This document shows positions 23,707 through 31,435 of a stretch of 64,000 nt of DNA, piece after piece. This stretch comes from Oscillospiraceae bacterium (GTDB taxonomy: Bacteria; Bacillota; Clostridia; Oscillospirales; CAG-382), in assembly GCA_015065165.1 (NCBI GenBank), contig SVQU01000005.1, positions 1 through 64,000 of the forward strand. Reading direction: 5' to 3'. Made by a program: the position numbers and the translations under genes. A model generated the notes under the pieces. It ran no database searches and was not told the DNA's origin. It worked only from the letters and a program-made list of their open reading frames with translations. Position 1 is the stretch's first letter. Each line of letters starts with the position of its first letter.

Positions 23707-26589
23707 CTACTCGTCATCCGACTCGTCTTCATCATCGAGGTTGTCTTCATCGTCGAGGTTATCCTCGTCATCCATGTCGTCCTCGCTGTAATTATCCTCG
23801 TCGTTCAGATAATCGTCATAGTCATCTTCGTCATAGTAGTCATCTTCGTCGCAGTTATCTTCATCATAACCGTCTTCGTCTTGGGTGTATTCCTCCATAA
23901 CCTCAAACTCATCCTTGGGCTTCTTTTTTGAAGAAACAGGGGACAAGAAGAACCTTGCGGTCTGCGCGAAAATGAAATATCCCACCGACAAAACCAACGC
24001 CACCGTAAGATTTGCCAAGGTAGGCACGGCATAGCCAAACCAACGGTGTCCGGGGATGGTAAATATCAAAATAGCGATAAACAGAAGAACTCCCAAGCCG
24101 CAAAGATAAAGCAAACGGTTGCCGAATCGTTTTGTGGCAATTACACCGCCGTGTCCGCCCACCGAGCAGGCATAGAAGAACAAAAGCAGGGTGAGGGCAA
24201 TCATGGTGCAGGTATAACTGAACGTTGCGGCGTGTATAACAAAAAGCACGATACCGCCGCCGGTAGAGAACATCAAGGGATAAATAAAATCGTTTAAAAC
24301 AGGGGTTTTTCGGGTGAAATACGCTTTGTGCCGTATGTTTTTGATATGTCGCGGCTCGAAAGCCAAGGCAATTGCAAAAACAAGGTTAAAGAGTATACCG
24401 CCAAACAAAACGTCCTGCGCCCGAAGGGGCGGAATTTGGTTGTAGCAAGCGGAAAACACCGAAGCTACAAGCATAATGATAATCGCGGCGGGAAGATAGG
24501 TAACCACCGAGGCGATTCTTCGGCAAATGGTTTTGGCGTTTAAAATACCGTCGGCAATAAGGTTTATACCCTTGCCCAACAGCATGGCGTCTGCTGTTTG
24601 CCTTAAGGTATCGCAAGAGCTTTCGGGCACAACCGAAACGTCTGCCTTGCTCATAATGGGAAGCTCGTTGATTCTTTCCGCAGTGGCTGTAACAGTGCGC
24701 TTGTTGTCCTGGCGAAGGCTTATTATATCCAGCCATTCGTTATCATCAATATTCAAGAATAAATTATAATATGATGCGTTTGCGATAAACAACCCTCTGT
24801 CGCAGGAGCGAATCTGCTCTGCGGTTATTATCTGCGCTTCGTCGGTGATTATACCTGCGTTTTTGGCAGAATTAAGGGCGGTGTAATAAGCATCGTTAGA
24901 GTTAAGTATAGTTTCTATTTCCGCGCCGCTGCAACGGTAAACCGCCTCGGCAACGCCGGGGTCGAGAGAACCCGAAAAGGAAATAAAGCCTTTAAATATA
25001 AGCCTTTGCTCGGCATCGATATCCCTTAAATTCGCCGCATCGGTTTCGCCGCAGGCAACCGCCAAAAGATAACTGTTGGTTCTTGCCGCATCCTCTGTGG
25101 CGGTGAGAATCTTCTTGCGGGTAAAGTCGCTTAATTTATAATCCGCGCCGTCCAATGTATAACCCGCGCAACGGGAAAGTATGTTTTCGGGCGAACCGCG
25201 GACGATAACCGTGTTTTTTCCGTTGTGAAGCGTTAGTATTCGGGAAATATCACCCGAAAGGGTATATTCCGCATCAAGGCGGATATATTGGTCGTGAATA
25301 GGTCCGATGGTTTTTCCCCATTCGCCGAAATATTCAACAATAGCATCGTCAAGAGGAAGCCCCTTATATTCGGGCAGACCTCTTTTGCGCTTTTTCTCCG
25401 CCGATGTAATCTTTCTCGCATCCGAGCAAACCAGCATAAGCTTTAAAAGCTCAACCGCCGCATCGTCGGGGCGTTTTTCTCTATCGTAATTGCGGCAGGA
25501 GAAATAAAGACCTGTAAGCGAAATGCGTTTGGGCGGGAACGCAAGGTTTTTACCGCAGGCGATGGTATCGGTTTTTGCTAACGTTTGAATACAGTTGTAA
25601 TTTTTAACAACCATACCGTCCTGCGCCATACTCTTTGCACCAAAGCCCAAAGCCGAAGCACAAAGAGAAACCATACTGTCGCAAAGCGAGCTTGCGCCTA
25701 TTGCCAACGAACAGATAAACCAATTTGTAATATCCGCCCCTGCGGCAACACCAACGGCAAGAAGCACAAAGCAAACTATAACCGATGCGATAGAAACAAA
25801 CCTGCAAAGCTCCGAAACGTATTTTAAAATATCGGGAAGCGTGTTTTCACGGTCGGCGCGCATTCGGCGTATAAGGGTTTCCTTACCCGTTCGGCAAACA
25901 ATTGCACTGCAATGCCCCGAGGTAACTATACTGCCCGCGTAAATCATATTTTCGCAAACAGATTCCCCCCCGTGGGAGATATATCTGCCCGTTTTGTGAA
26001 CACTGCCCGAAACCCCGCTTATATGAGATTCCAACACCGAAAGCGCCAAATCGTCAATTAAACGGCAGTCGGCGGGGACCATAGAGCCTTCCTCAAGCAT
26101 AACTATATCGCCGGGAACAAGCAAACGGCTGTCTATAACCGTTTCCTCGCCGTTTCGAACCACCTTTGCCTTAAGCGAGGAATATTTCTTCGGTAATCTT
26201 AAAGCGATACTTGCGCGGAATTCGGCAAAGGCATTAAAAAATATAATACCGCCGATAATCAACGTCATAAACAGATAGGTGTATTCATAAGGTCTGAAGA
26301 TATACATCAATAAGGAGCAAAGAAGCAGAAAAGGGGAGGTAAGCCCTTTTATCTGGTTCTTAAGGCTTTCTCTAAAGGAAAGCCGAAATTCGCTTCTTAT
26401 CTCATTCGCCCCGAAAATCCTGCGAGCCTTTTTAATCTGCTTTTCGGTTTTGCCTAAAATAAGGTCGCTTTCCAATGCCTCGGCAACCTCAATGGGGCTC
26501 ATTTCCTCGGGGGAAAAGCTAACGAATTCATCCTGTTCACGGTTGGAAACGGTTTTTGTTTTTAAATTGTCATTTCCGTTTTGTGTCAT
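23707..26589 (-). CDS. P-type ATPase-fold membrane protein lacking canonical catalytic motifs (predicted pseudo-ATPase), with poly-acidic C-terminal tail
   Basis: A-domain context 'LLVPGDIVMLEEGSMVPADCRLIDD', N-domain 'VIVRGSPENILSRCAGYT', TM topology and length fit P-type ATPases, but DKTGT, TGES, PEGL, TGD and GDGVND positions are replaced (see findings). Confidence 0.8.
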   Translation of the reverse strand: MTQNGNDNLKTKTVSNREQDEFVSFSPEEMSPIEVAEALESDLILGKTEKQIKKARRIFGANEIRSEFRLSFRESLKNQIKGLTSPFLLLCSLLMYIFRPYEYTYLFMTLIIGGIIFFNAFAEFRASIALRLPKKYSSLKAKVVRNGEETVIDSRLLVPGDIVMLEEGSMVPADCRLIDDLALSVLESHISGVSGSVHKTGRYISHGGESVCENMIYAGSIVTSGHCSAIVCRTGKETLIRRMRADRENTLPDILKYVSELCRFVSIASVIVCFVLLAVGVAAGADITNWFICSLAIGASSLCDSMVSLCASALGFGAKSMAQDGMVVKNYNCIQTLAKTDTIACGKNLAFPPKRISLTGLYFSCRNYDREKRPDDAAVELLKLMLVCSDARKITSAEKKRKRGLPEYKGLPLDDAIVEYFGEWGKTIGPIHDQYIRLDAEYTLSGDISRILTLHNGKNTVIVRGSPENILSRCAGYTLDGADYKLSDFTRKKILTATEDAARTNSYLLAVACGETDAANLRDIDAEQRLIFKGFISFSGSLDPGVAEAVYRCSGAEIETILNSNDAYYTALNSAKNAGIITDEAQIITAEQIRSCDRGLFIANASYYNLFLNIDDNEWLDIISLRQDNKRTVTATAERINELPIMSKADVSVVPESSCDTLRQTADAMLLGKGINLIADGILNAKTICRRIASVVTYLPAAIIIMLVASVFSACYNQIPPLRAQDVLFGGILFNLVFAIALAFEPRHIKNIRHKAYFTRKTPVLNDFIYPLMFSTGGGIVLFVIHAATFSYTCTMIALTLLLFFYACSVGGHGGVIATKRFGNRLLYLCGLGVLLFIAILIFTIPGHRWFGYAVPTLANLTVALVLSVGYFIFAQTARFFLSPVSSKKKPKDEFEVMEEYTQDEDGYDEDNCDEDDYYDEDDYDDYLNDEDNYSEDDMDDEDNLDDEDNLDDEDESDDE

Positions 26590-26608: not shown

Positions 26609-28891
26609 TCATTTTTCGGTTGAAACAACCACGCCTTCGTCCTTAACGTCGGCATAAAGCTTTGAAACAGAATCGCGGTAGGAGTTAACGATAACCTCTG
26701 CAAGCTTATCCTCTACCTCGGTCTGAATAAGTCTGCGCAGATTTCTTGCGCCGTATTTTTCGGAATAACCCTTTTCCGCAAGATAATCCACCAGCTTTTC
26801 GCCGTATTCAAAGCTAATGCCCTTTTCCTCAAGCACCGAAACAAGGTCGCCAAGCATAATTTTGGTGATAGCCTTGAAGTTTTCGGTATTCAAGCGGTTG
26901 AACACAACGATTTCATCAACGCGGTTGATAAATTCGGGACGTAAAAATCCTTCCAAAGCCTTCATAACACGGCTTTGCTCGTTTTGCTGTACGCTTTCGC
27001 CAAAGCCTGCAACAGAATTACCCTCGCTGCTGCCCGCGTTGGTTGTCATTATAATAACGGTGTTTTCAAAATTAACCTCTTTGCCGTGGGCGTCGGTAAT
27101 TCTGCCGTCGTCAAGAATCTGCAAAAGTATATTCATAACGTCGGGGTGCGCCTTTTCGATTTCGTCAAACAAAACCACGGTGTAAGGCTTTCTGCGGATT
27201 TTCTCGGTTAACTGTCCCGCCTCGTCATAACCAACGTAACCGGGAGGCGAACCGATAATTCTCGAAACCGAATGCTTTTCCATAAATTCGCTCATATCAA
27301 GGCGGATTAATGCCTCGGGAGAATCGAAAAGATATCTTGCAAGCACCTTAACAAGCTCGGTCTTGCCCACACCCGTGCTGCCTGCAAAAATAAAGGAAAC
27401 AGGCTTCTTTTTATAGGAAATACCCGCGCGTGAACGTTTTATCGCCCTTGCGACGGTTTCCACCGCCTTGTCCTGACCGATAATACGTTCCTTAACCGCT
27501 TCCTCAAGACGGCGAATCTTTACAAATTCGTTTTCGCTGATATTGGTGGCGGGTACACCCGTCCAAACCTCGATAACCCTTGCAATTTCATCGTCGTTAA
27601 GCTCTAATTTATCTCTTTCCAGCGAAAGCTCGTTAAATTTTTCTTCCTTTTGTAAAATTGCGGTTTTTAAATCCGCGATTCTGCGGTAATAGCCTTCCTC
27701 GGGCTCTGCCTTTGCCTCCAATGCGCCAAGCTCATCTCTAAGCTTCTTCAACTCGTCCGAAACAAGGGCGATTTCGTTAATAATAGGAGAGTGCATTGCC
27801 ATATGCGAGCAAGCCTCGTCCATAAGGTCAATGGCTTTGTCGGGCAAAAATCTGTCGGTAATATATCTTTCGGAAAGCACAACCATTCTGCGAAGGAGAT
27901 AATCGGGGATGGTGATTCCGTGGTGCTTTTCGTAATATTTCTTAATTCCCGCAAGAATCTTAATGCTGTCCTCAATGGAAGGCTCGCCAATCATAACCGG
28001 CTGAAAACGTCTTTCCAAAGCGGCGTCCTTTTCGATATATTGGCGGTATTCCTTAAGGGTGGTTGCGCCGATAAGCTGAATTTCACCGCGGGAAAGGGCA
28101 GGCTTAAGAATATTCGCGGCGTTCATACCGCCCTCGGCGTTACCTGCGCCGACGATAGCGTGTACCTCATCGATAACCAAAATAACGTTGCCCGCCTTTT
28201 TGGTTTCTTCAATAAGACCGCGCATGCGGTTTTCAAACTGACCTCTGAACTGTGTACCTGCCACAACGGCTGTCATATCAACCAAATAAACCTCTTTGCC
28301 CTTAAGCTTATAGGGTACGTCCCCTGCGGCAATTTTTTGAGCAAGTGCTTCTGCTACGGCGGTTTTACCTACACCGGGTTCGCCGATAAGACAGGGATTG
28401 TTCTTTTGTCTGCGGGTGAGAATCTGAATAACACGCTCTAATTCGCTGTCTCTGCCAACGATGTTGTCAAGCTTGTTTTCTCTTGCTCTTTCGGTAAGAC
28501 AAATGCAAAAATCTCTAAGATAGCTTGCGCCTCTTTTGCCCTTTTGCTTGGGAGAACCCTGCTTTGCATCGCCGTTTTGGTTGTTATCTTCGGCTTCCGC
28601 AGGCTTGTTGCCGCCGAAAAATGCGTTGATGTCTATAGAGGGTGCTCTGCCCTCGTCATCCTCGCCCTCCTCGCCGTCCATAGGCATAAGGCCGTTCATA
28701 CCCTCGCTTATGGCGTCCAATTCCTCGGGACTTATATTCATTTGGTTTAAAATATCATCAATAGGCTTAATGCCCATTTCACGGGCGCATTTAATGCAAT
28801 AACCCTCGCTTGTTATTTTTCCGCCCTCGTTTTTCTGAACGAAAATTATGGCGGGGCGTATATTACAACGGGAACATCTCTTTAAATCCAT
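26609..28891 (-). CDS. ATP-dependent Clp protease ATP-binding subunit, ClpE-like (N-terminal zinc finger)
   Basis: N-terminal CxxC..CxxC 'CSRCNIRPA...GYCIKCARE', two AAA+ domains (GEPGVGKTAVAE; GSTGVGKTELVK), UVR-like linker. Confidence 0.88.
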   Translation of the reverse strand: MDLKRCSRCNIRPAIIFVQKNEGGKITSEGYCIKCAREMGIKPIDDILNQMNISPEELDAISEGMNGLMPMDGEEGEDDEGRAPSIDINAFFGGNKPAEAEDNNQNGDAKQGSPKQKGKRGASYLRDFCICLTERARENKLDNIVGRDSELERVIQILTRRQKNNPCLIGEPGVGKTAVAEALAQKIAAGDVPYKLKGKEVYLVDMTAVVAGTQFRGQFENRMRGLIEETKKAGNVILVIDEVHAIVGAGNAEGGMNAANILKPALSRGEIQLIGATTLKEYRQYIEKDAALERRFQPVMIGEPSIEDSIKILAGIKKYYEKHHGITIPDYLLRRMVVLSERYITDRFLPDKAIDLMDEACSHMAMHSPIINEIALVSDELKKLRDELGALEAKAEPEEGYYRRIADLKTAILQKEEKFNELSLERDKLELNDDEIARVIEVWTGVPATNISENEFVKIRRLEEAVKERIIGQDKAVETVARAIKRSRAGISYKKKPVSFIFAGSTGVGKTELVKVLARYLFDSPEALIRLDMSEFMEKHSVSRIIGSPPGYVGYDEAGQLTEKIRRKPYTVVLFDEIEKAHPDVMNILLQILDDGRITDAHGKEVNFENTVIIMTTNAGSSEGNSVAGFGESVQQNEQSRVMKALEGFLRPEFINRVDEIVVFNRLNTENFKAITKIMLGDLVSVLEEKGISFEYGEKLVDYLAEKGYSEKYGARNLRRLIQTEVEDKLAEVIVNSYRDSVSKLYADVKDEGVVVSTEK

Positions 28892-28909: not shown

Positions 28910-29467
28910 CTAATTTGCTTTATTAAAGACGTTTAAATTATATTTGCCCTTAAACTCTTTAAAATAATACATAGAAAGGGCGAAACTCATACAAATAACC
29001 ATAATCGCTACCACAACTATATCCAAGGTGGCGTTGCTTCTTATCATAAGGCGCAAAAAGGCGCAAACAAACAAAATCACCGTGGAAAGCTTACCGAACC
29101 AGCTTGCCGCAACAACAATATTACGCTCTTTTTTAATCCTTACCGATGCGTAAAGCATACCGAATTCCTTTAGGAATAAAAGGAAAACTACAATAAAATA
29201 TATATAGTTCTCCAAAGCAAAGCAAAATGCCGCCGCAAGCTGCATTATTTTGTCGGCTATCGGGTCAAGAATCTTGCCCACGTCGGTAATCCATCCGTTG
29301 CGTCTTGCCAGATAACCGTCCAATGCGTCGGTTATCCATGCCGTTACGTATATTATAGCCGCCACGTGAGCTTTATATTTGAAATAGCCCACTACAAACA
29401 AAGGAACCATAAACAAACGTAATACAGAAAGCATATTGGGGATTTGTCTTTTAAAATTTGAACTCAT
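28910..29467 (-). CDS. pgsA: CDP-alcohol phosphatidyltransferase family protein (PgsA-like)
   Basis: 'NMLSVLRLFMVPLFVVGYF', 'WITDALDGYLARRNGWITDVGKILDPIADKIMQ' (DGxxAR...GxxxDxxxD). Confidence 0.9.
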   Translation of the reverse strand: MSSNFKRQIPNMLSVLRLFMVPLFVVGYFKYKAHVAAIIYVTAWITDALDGYLARRNGWITDVGKILDPIADKIMQLAAAFCFALENYIYFIVVFLLFLKEFGMLYASVRIKKERNIVVAASWFGKLSTVILFVCAFLRLMIRSNATLDIVVVAIMVICMSFALSMYYFKEFKGKYNLNVFNKAN

Positions 29468-29488: not shown

Positions 29489-30199
29489 TTACATAAAGAA
29501 TGAAAAAATATCTATTTCGTTAAAAAACTTGAACAACAAGGTCTTTTCGGGAGCAAGGTTTGAAATAAAGTCGCTGCCCAAAAAGTCTGCGTTTGCAATA
29601 ATAAGATTTGCGATAAAGCAGAACAGCAAAACGCGAATAGCCGCCAGAACAACGCCCACAACGATACCCAAAAGCTTGTTGCAGGCATTAAGCACGGGCA
29701 AACGGAAAATCTGGTCGAGAATAAACGCGACTATCATAAGTATAATACGTGTGCCTATGTAAATAGCTACAATTGCCACCGCCATGGCGATGGTATGTAT
29801 AATAGGCTCGGCAATTTTTTCTGCCAATCTTGCGGTTGCTTCTTCCATACCCGAAACAACCTTATCCTCGTACCAATCGTTAAGGTTTTCGCTGTCTATA
29901 CCCGCAAGGGAAAGAAGATTGTTAAATTCTTCGCTCTTTCCGTCCAAAAGATTATCAATATCAAAAGAGCCGTCAAGCAAAATGTCGCTTATTTTTTCCT
30001 CGGTGGCGGTTCTTATAGAATCTCCAACGGGGGTTTGCTTTATAACCTCCGCCAAAGGTGTTGCAAAGGCGGCGGTAAGTGCAATAGCGATAATAAACGC
30101 AGATGCGCTTATGGCTGTCTTTACAAAACCGTTTTTTGCGGCGAAGTAAATTGTAAGACCTGCGATAAGAACAATGATAATATCAAGTGTCCAGGACAT
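29489..30199 (-). CDS. CvpA family membrane protein
   Basis: 'MSWTLDIIIVLIAGLTIYFAAKNGFVKTAISASAFIIAIALTAAFATPLAEVI' and C-terminal TM block. Confidence 0.8.
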   Translation of the reverse strand: MSWTLDIIIVLIAGLTIYFAAKNGFVKTAISASAFIIAIALTAAFATPLAEVIKQTPVGDSIRTATEEKISDILLDGSFDIDNLLDGKSEEFNNLLSLAGIDSENLNDWYEDKVVSGMEEATARLAEKIAEPIIHTIAMAVAIVAIYIGTRIILMIVAFILDQIFRLPVLNACNKLLGIVVGVVLAAIRVLLFCFIANLIIANADFLGSDFISNLAPEKTLLFKFFNEIDIFSFFM

Positions 30200-31435
30200 T
30201 TAGTTTTCCTCCTTAGGCTGGAAAGTGTTGAGGTCAAACACCTCGGCTTGGTTTTCGGCGAACAAAATTATATTGTCGTCGCCCTTAATAAGCGAGGTGT
30301 AGGATGTGGGTACGGAATAGGAAATGCTTTCGTCGGTTTCAAAATTAAAGACAGTTAATGCGCCGGGTGAAAGCACGTAATAGGCGTTTTCGGTGATAAC
30401 CGAATCCGAAACCGAAAACGGGAAATCGTGAGAGAAAATTTCCTCTGCGTTTAAATTGTAAATTACGGTATTGGTACCGCCCGAAAGCCCATCCAAGGCA
30501 TAGTTAAGCAAAATTCTGTCGTTTTCCACTCTGCCGGAAAGCAGGTTTTTGTTTGCAAAAGAAATTTCGCCTATAAGGTTGTTTTCGTTGTCAAAACTGC
30601 GAAGTCTGTCGCTGGTCATAAGACAAAAACCGCTGTCGGTGTAATATACACCCAAGGGTATTTCTCCCACAAACTTTTCTTCGAAAACAGCATCCTCCGA
30701 GCTTGTGCTCATTTTGGAAAGCAGTGTTACTATGTTACCGTTTTCGGAATAATGGAAGGCGGATATAACCTCGTTCCCTTTGGGAGAAATATCCACAAAG
30801 TCAACGTATTTATCCCCCAACAGCTTAGAATAAATCAAACGGAATTCCTTATCGTAAACATAAACCGCGCTGCGATAACCCTTTGCCGAGCTTGCGGCGA
30901 CAAACCCGCCGTCTTCCGAAGCGGCAAGCCAATATATAGGATAGTCAAAGGAGAGGGTGGATATGCGGGAATAGGAATTGAAAATACGCAACTCCTTGCC
31001 GCCCAAATCGTAACAGAAAAGGTTTATCCCGTTGTTTTCAACCTTGGGGTGGTCAAGAGAAAACGCCTCGCGAAGTATGGTTTCTCCGTCCCAGCCGATA
31101 ACCGTAAGCCCGTTTTCGTTAAGCACCGCAAGGTCGCCCTTAAAAATCAAGCCTCGGTTGCCCTCACTGCCGTCGAATGCAAGCAAACTGCCTGTTTCGC
31201 GCTGTTCCTCCTCGGCAGGGTTGATAAACTTAAGCATATACCTGAAGTTTTCCATAGATATTTCGCTTGCGTGAAAAGCCAGCGAATATACTGCAAAGGC
31301 AACCGCAAAAATTATACAAGCGTAGCGTATAACCGCGCTGATTCGCGCCAGTTTCAAATAATGGCTGTTAACCGACGGCAGTTCCCGCTTTTTGCGAGAC
31401 GTCCGTTTATCCTTAAATACCGAAAAAGCTCCCAT
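30200..31435 (-). CDS. DUF5711 family protein (membrane-anchored beta-propeller-like)
   Basis: N-terminal basic/TM segment then beta-rich repeats 'GLIFKGDLAVLNENGLTVIGWDGETILREAFSLDHPKV'. Confidence 0.7.
   Translation of the reverse strand: MGAFSVFKDKRTSRKKRELPSVNSHYLKLARISAVIRYACIIFAVAFAVYSLAFHASEISMENFRYMLKFINPAEEEQRETGSLLAFDGSEGNRGLIFKGDLAVLNENGLTVIGWDGETILREAFSLDHPKVENNGINLFCYDLGGKELRIFNSYSRISTLSFDYPIYWLAASEDGGFVAASSAKGYRSAVYVYDKEFRLIYSKLLGDKYVDFVDISPKGNEVISAFHYSENGNIVTLLSKMSTSSEDAVFEEKFVGEIPLGVYYTDSGFCLMTSDRLRSFDNENNLIGEISFANKNLLSGRVENDRILLNYALDGLSGGTNTVIYNLNAEEIFSHDFPFSVSDSVITENAYYVLSPGALTVFNFETDESISYSVPTSYTSLIKGDDNIILFAENQAEVFDLNTFQPKEEN

Follow-up and report, generated by a model that had tools for sequence, protein, structure and literature searches.

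A probable P-type ATPase-derived membrane pseudoenzyme encoded directly behind a Clp unfoldase gene in three families of one Clostridia order

Few membrane enzymes are understood as well as the P-type ATPases, of which hardly any catalytically dead members are known, and this raises the question of what is done by a protein that has the architecture of such a pump and none of its catalytic motifs. The gene concerned lies in a window of 64,000 nucleotides (positions 1 to 64,000 of contig SVQU01000005.1) from a gut bacterium of the Oscillospiraceae. The original prediction, made from the letters of the window, was that an intact 960-aa frame encodes a full-length P-type ATPase-fold protein with all catalytic motifs replaced, and that this reflects selection for a non-transport role and not a pseudogene. 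Structure prediction, an HMM alignment, a search for the same losses in other species and dN/dS were proposed as checks, with an unrelated fold or orthologs with intact DKTGT as grounds for giving the idea up.

23707..26589, minus strand: pseudo-P-type ATPase gene, 960 aa, with ten predicted membrane helices and A, P and N domains present

The frame is indeed intact, running from an ATG at 26589 to a stop at 23707 by ORF reading in the window. In Pfam the protein matches PF00122 (the A-domain block) at E=1.5e-27, PF00689 and PF00690 over their cut-offs, and the N-domain family weakly. Its best solved relative is LMCA1, the Listeria Ca2+-ATPase, matched over residues 45-755 at E=2e-44 (phmmer); a profile of the family matches it from profile position 41 to 891 at E=3e-116. 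When profiles of the family and of canonical pumps were aligned with hhalign, 857 columns were covered at probability 100. The M, A, P and N domains all match P-type ATPases. The pseudo-ATPase is certainly a member of the P-type ATPase superfamily by descent and over its whole length, of type II (LMCA1/SERCA/SPCA), and the proposed HMM alignment, by Pfam and by family profile, came out as predicted.

An AlphaFold2 model of the pseudo-ATPase based on 33 alignment rows (pLDDT 75.6, pTM 0.72) contains ten membrane helices and A, N and P domains, with TM-scores of about 0.77 to SERCA E1 and 0.73/0.81 to LMCA1 E1; every PDB match listed is a P-type ATPase, and most of the best are structures of E1 states. 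Other P-type ATPases, taken from IMG/VR contigs, make up 26 of the 33 rows, so that the model serves mainly to show that the sequence is compatible with the fold and less as independent evidence for it; with the seven close rows alone the pLDDT was 35.7. By sequence and by this model, whose alignment includes canonical pumps, the protein is P-type with ten helices, and nothing pointed to an unrelated fold.

In P-type ATPases the Asp of DKTGT is the phosphate acceptor, TGES is the motif behind dephosphorylation, and Mg and ATP are coordinated by GDGxND and TGD. The corresponding stretches of the window protein are as follows, f1 being one of three GTDB families in which we found homologues.

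25855..26184, minus strand: A (actuator) domain, residues 136-245, the best-kept scaffold
26008..26019, minus strand: SGVS replacing TGES, the dephosphorylation motif, residues 191-194 (phmmer, MAFFT, hhalign)
25669..25686, minus strand: LCDSMV replacing TM4 PEGL (PEGL to CDSM; alignment columns)
25537..25560, minus strand: ACGKNLAF replacing CSDKTGTL (DKTGT to GKNLA, residues 346-350; phmmer, MAFFT, hhalign)
25186..25203, minus strand: VRGSPE, the KGxPE-like N-domain motif; Lys515 is Arg here and Lys in 19/44 f1 relatives
24877..24906, minus strand: LNSNDAYYTA replacing the TGD loop (TGD to SND; MAFFT, hhalign)
24733..24735, minus strand: Trp619 replacing the invariant P-domain Lys684; conserved in f1
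24658..24684, minus strand: TAERINELP replacing TGDGVNDAP (phmmer, MAFFT, hhalign)
23710..23919, minus strand: acidic C-terminal tail, residues 891-960, lineage-specific and of low complexity

A functional P-type ATPase would carry a phosphorylatable Asp in DKTGT, TGES in the A domain, and TGD and GDGxNDxP in the P domain, and the window protein has GKNLA, SGVS, and SND and AERINELP, respectively. Nor are the ligands of a type II Ca2+-ATPase present: TM4 PEGL reads CDSM, and TM6 NxxxD has become GxxxN, the aligned positions reading GGILFN. Since none of DKTGT, TGES, TGD and GDGxND remains, the window protein cannot credibly be assigned a P-type cycle. An alignment artefact was considered and rejected, as phmmer, MAFFT and hhalign agree on the motif columns. 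The claim that all catalytic motifs are replaced stands for the motifs but not for every residue, some single ones surviving in f1. The A-domain context was correctly described as preserved (R145, G160, D161, G168, P172, D174, E187, K199, G225 and G235 are kept, and the sites of this domain that are invariant in canonical pumps are retained in f1 and mostly in f17), and in VRGSPE Lys515 is changed to Arg; the adenine-stacking Phe487 of the adenine pocket is gone in the alignment.

Two local features deserve mention. Next to the site where the phospho-acceptor used to be, f1 but not f17 conserves a Cys, residue 345 (window 25555-25557), which might conceivably serve as an alternative reactive residue. 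The acidic Asp/Glu tail is encoded by short tandem repeats (window 23725-23772 and 23813-23880) and differs strongly in length from species to species; it is not present in f17 or most other genera, and we rejected this lineage-specific element as a core feature of the protein.

Is the loss peculiar to one strain? We found 67 homologues in three families of one Clostridia order (46 in f1, 16 in f17 and five in f20). Relatives occur in all 23 same-genus genomes searched, in 9 of the 13 f1 genera searched (they are missing from g3, g4, g7 and g9), and in 16 genomes of f17 and five of f20. DKTGT, complete TGES and complete GDGVND are missing from all 67, apart from motifs cut by contig ends, and the motifs are intact in the 44 canonical P-type sequences that we read in this order and class. 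The motif positions are lost across species, as anticipated, every relative with intact DKTGT that we read belonged to the separate canonical group, and strain-specific loss is rejected.

What replaced the motifs is itself patterned. In f1 the replacements are conserved (MC-x-K-x3-FPP, C-D-S, YYTA and Trp for Lys684), M344, C345, F351, P352, Y568 and W619 are newly fixed, and A218, C232, P252, A547 and G599 are novelties common to f1 and most of f17. The f17 replacements differ from those of f1 (D/N/H-S-x-x-Y/F is an example), and those of f20 are different again. Of 198 columns invariant in canonical pumps, f1 keeps 29, many of them in the A-domain scaffold. The phosphorylatable Asp column holds Asp in 12/67 homologues, never within DKTGT, and the Asp is missing in 55/67; because it survives in those 12, and because scattered GDGxND remnants persist in f17, some lineages may retain residual activity. 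As a separate observation, members from f1 genus g2 (L041, L044, L082, L084, L089 and L090) read CDKx-x-AFP, keeping Asp-Lys and having lost TGT, TGES and GDGVND; if residual phosphorylation exists anywhere in the family, these members are the likeliest to show it.

On an unrooted tree of pseudo and canonical sequences, made by a quick search and containing several long branches, a single branch with SH-aLRT 100 separates the two kinds, and each of f1, f17 and f20 forms one group. This topology would fit one origin of the family. Profile searches of the order and class beyond these three families returned canonical pumps only, among the sequences read; as scoring in these large searches was limited to the top two candidates of each genome, and f20 was reached only via clp, divergent members elsewhere may be missed.

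The gene is plainly maintained. For 16 close pairs dN/dS (NG86) was 0.057-0.195, below 1 as the original prediction required, with the distal P domain (0.03-0.10) and the A domain (0.01-0.16), the very places of catalytic loss, generally the most constrained parts and TM5-10 the least constrained region in most pairs. Across seven genomes, where synonymous sites are near saturation, the ratio was similar to that of pgsA and mscL, above that of clp and below that of cvpA. The family is under strong purifying selection in all three families of bacteria, and the loss of catalytic residues is common to species in which dN/dS is well below 1. A decaying pseudogene or an assembly artefact might be suspected from the lost motifs, yet long intact frames in nearly all relatives, these low ratios, the occurrence in dozens of separate genomes and the conserved new motifs leave that explanation next to no probability, and the frames together with dN/dS led us to reject a pseudogene. 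Selection for a non-transport role thus gains support from the shared loss, dN/dS and the fold, the role itself being something that we infer. We consider it highly probable that the protein is a membrane pseudoenzyme derived from a P-type ATPase with a selected non-pumping role.

There is a debated precedent for a protein of this kind, and it bears on whether the pseudo-ATPase could still be a transporter. The closest precedent, human TMEM94/ERMA, resembles P-type ATPases but has DKQGI and GSSANL and lacks TGES (PMC12134183, PMC13322241). One group has reported ATP-driven Mg2+ transport by ERMA (PMC13322241), whereas TMEM94 has been argued from structure not to be a P-type Mg2+ ATPase (PMC12134183); the structural papers are divided over this one debated dead-pump case. 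Both TMEM94/ERMA and the pseudo-ATPase have P-type architecture, lack TGES and have GDGVND replaced (GSSANL in the human protein), and for the former hydrolysis or transport is debated (PMC12134183, PMC13322241). Unlike the pseudo-ATPase, which is bacterial, lies beside Clp and mostly lacks the Asp, TMEM94/ERMA is a eukaryotic ER protein that keeps it in DKQGI, a motif that on inspection does not occur in the pseudo-ATPase; the likeness is drawn from descriptions of TMEM94/ERMA. The bacterial family has gone further than TMEM94: the Asp is gone from the majority of its members, and at least one f20 protein has also lost most of the N domain.

By analogy with what has been claimed for TMEM94/ERMA, the pseudo-ATPase could still carry out transport, either by running a non-canonical cycle or, independently of ATP, as a channel, exchanger or protein that handles lipids. 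The ten helices of the AlphaFold2 model are in keeping with this, as are the single residues that survive in f1 (Lys352 in 36/46, Asp627 in 39/46 and, at the alignment column of Glu309 in TM4, an acidic residue in 40/46) and the reported, though disputed, Mg2+ movement by ERMA (PMC13322241; PMC12134183). However, TM6 NxxxD is gone, with GxxxN in f1, TM5-10 is least constrained in most close pairs, the replacements are not alike in f1, f17 and f20, and the f20 copy L204 (684 aa) is without most of its N domain, so that we regard transport as unlikely.

The strongest functional lead is the fixed place of the gene behind a Clp gene, which the original prediction did not include. The pseudo-ATPase gene forms the 3' end of a DUF5711-CvpA-PgsA-Clp cluster:

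30200..31435, minus strand: DUF5711 protein gene
29489..30199, minus strand: CvpA-family membrane protein gene
28910..29467, minus strand: PgsA-like CDP-alcohol phosphatidyltransferase gene
26609..28891, minus strand: ClpE-like AAA+ unfoldase gene, 760 aa, its stop 19 bp before the pseudo-ATPase start

In all 65 readable flanks (45/45 in f1, 15/15 in f17 and 5/5 in f20) the Clp gene is the immediate upstream neighbour and has the same strand; the two further flanks are interrupted by the end of a contig or by Ns. The gap between the genes has a median of 36 bp in f1, and in 8/15 f17 flanks they overlap by 1-4 bp, a pattern of the kind expected for translational coupling. The window Clp has an N-terminal CxxC...CxxC, two intact AAA+ modules and AGF at the ClpP-loop position; we call the neighbouring Clp ClpE-like on account of the two modules and the N-terminal motif. 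As both Walker A/B pairs are kept in the Clp proteins, and x-G-F occupies the ClpP-loop position in nearly all, these unfoldases appear to be active. On the downstream side, about 350 bp lie between the pseudo-ATPase gene and mscL, which probably does not belong to the Clp cluster. RNA families and tRNAs were searched for in the window and none were found.

The cluster also exists without a pseudo-ATPase gene, in f2, f3, f7, f14, f16 and f1 genus g4, and other families have unrelated genes downstream. Clp, therefore, does not need the pseudo-ATPase, which was either added to the end of the cluster or lost from it. Adjacency to clp outlasts all other neighbours, even where pgsA or mscL lie elsewhere.

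Given that a dead pump is kept under strong selection right behind a Clp gene in three families, a non-pumping job is probable. While pseudoenzyme status is well supported, we infer the link with Clp. The whole P-type architecture is retained, and the residues that would phosphorylate, dephosphorylate, coordinate Mg/ATP or form the ion site in TM4 have been replaced. Our working model is that the protein would not run the E1/E2 phosphorylation cycle and, with less certainty, that it may work with the unfoldase of its own gene cluster. It would act as a membrane-embedded adaptor, anchor or sensor that brings the unfoldase to the membrane, with or without ClpP; alternatively, it might present membrane substrates or signal for them. 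In either case the conserved A-domain/P-domain headpiece may offer a docking or ligand surface. We favor a membrane partner of Clp as a ten-helix anchor and a large conserved cytoplasmic headpiece are encoded with the unfoldase. Judged from gene order, the partnership as such falls just short of an even chance in our estimation, whereas for the whole statement, a non-pumping P-type-derived pseudoenzyme whose most likely role is that of membrane partner of a Clp unfoldase, we put the balance slightly in favor. A fuller scenario, in which the P-type scaffold lost catalysis a single time, in a common ancestor of the three Clostridia families, and was recruited as ten-helix partner of a ClpE-like unfoldase, the old pump headpiece docking it in a membrane-tethered unfolding or proteolysis system, is tentative and less likely than not.

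Gene order within one bacterial order could reflect shared expression only. If so, the pseudo-ATPase might be a sensor of a nucleotide, metal or lipid acting alone, with clp a transcriptional neighbour only. A strongly kept A-domain scaffold and N-domain Gly516 would suit such a sensor, and the cluster also has membrane and lipid genes (CvpA, PgsA); the loss of Phe487 from the adenine pocket and the persistence of clp beyond every other neighbour make it very unlikely.

It is also conceivable that the protein is paired, as pseudoenzyme with enzyme, with the cell's own canonical P-type Ca2+-ATPase and tunes its activity or assembly. Membrane helices are a route of regulation for native P-type pumps, and a canonical type II pump is found in 38/39 f1 genomes with the pseudo gene vs 2/11 without it (Fisher p=2e-7, a test that ignores shared ancestry). 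Those 11 negative genomes, however, come from four genera only, which implies few independent events, and no canonical match at E<=1e-60 was obtained in 2/16 f17 genomes (G156, 94% complete, and G812) or in f1 genome G010 (85%). Strict dependence on a canonical pump is weakened by these three genomes; gene order, moreover, ties the pseudo-ATPase to clp and not to a pump, and we rate such a pairing decidedly unlikely.

Turning back to the preferred reading, a membrane partner of Clp, several known systems offer comparisons. LMCA1 (lmo0841, a bacterial type IIA Ca2+-ATPase), SERCA and SPCA share the domain order, ten helices and fold, and give the best sequence and structure matches, but in the pseudo-ATPase their catalytic motifs and TM4 PEGL and TM6 NxxxD Ca2+ ligands are all replaced. 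Its neighbour gene, with a zinc-type motif and two AAA+ modules, is of the ClpE/ClpC type, unfoldases that work with separate adaptors (MecA, McsA/McsB). Known Clp adaptors of this sort are small soluble proteins, and the candidate ten-helix, pump-derived partner would be new. The iRhoms, membrane pseudoproteases, keep a whole enzyme fold, have lost catalytic residues and have a new regulatory role under selection; they resemble the pseudo-ATPase, by description, in the kept membrane enzyme fold and lost catalysis, although the fold is different. Searches of the open-licence literature turned up no bacterial pseudo-P-type ATPase. A bacterial family so widespread, without the catalytic motifs yet under strong selection, provides a clean, manipulable system for roles of the pump scaffold beyond pumping and, if the Clp partnership is true, a new route would bring regulated protein unfolding to the bacterial membrane. 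Automatic annotation of these genes as cation-transporting P-type ATPases would mislead.

The most degenerate members, both still behind clp, are the f20 proteins L204 (genome G093), shortened as described above, and L205 (genome G110), which at 1155 aa is greatly expanded. A search of a viral collection with the pseudo profile returned no relatives, and many IMG/VR contigs classed as viral (L208-L240, up to 355 kb) carry full-length P-type ATPases that match a canonical profile.
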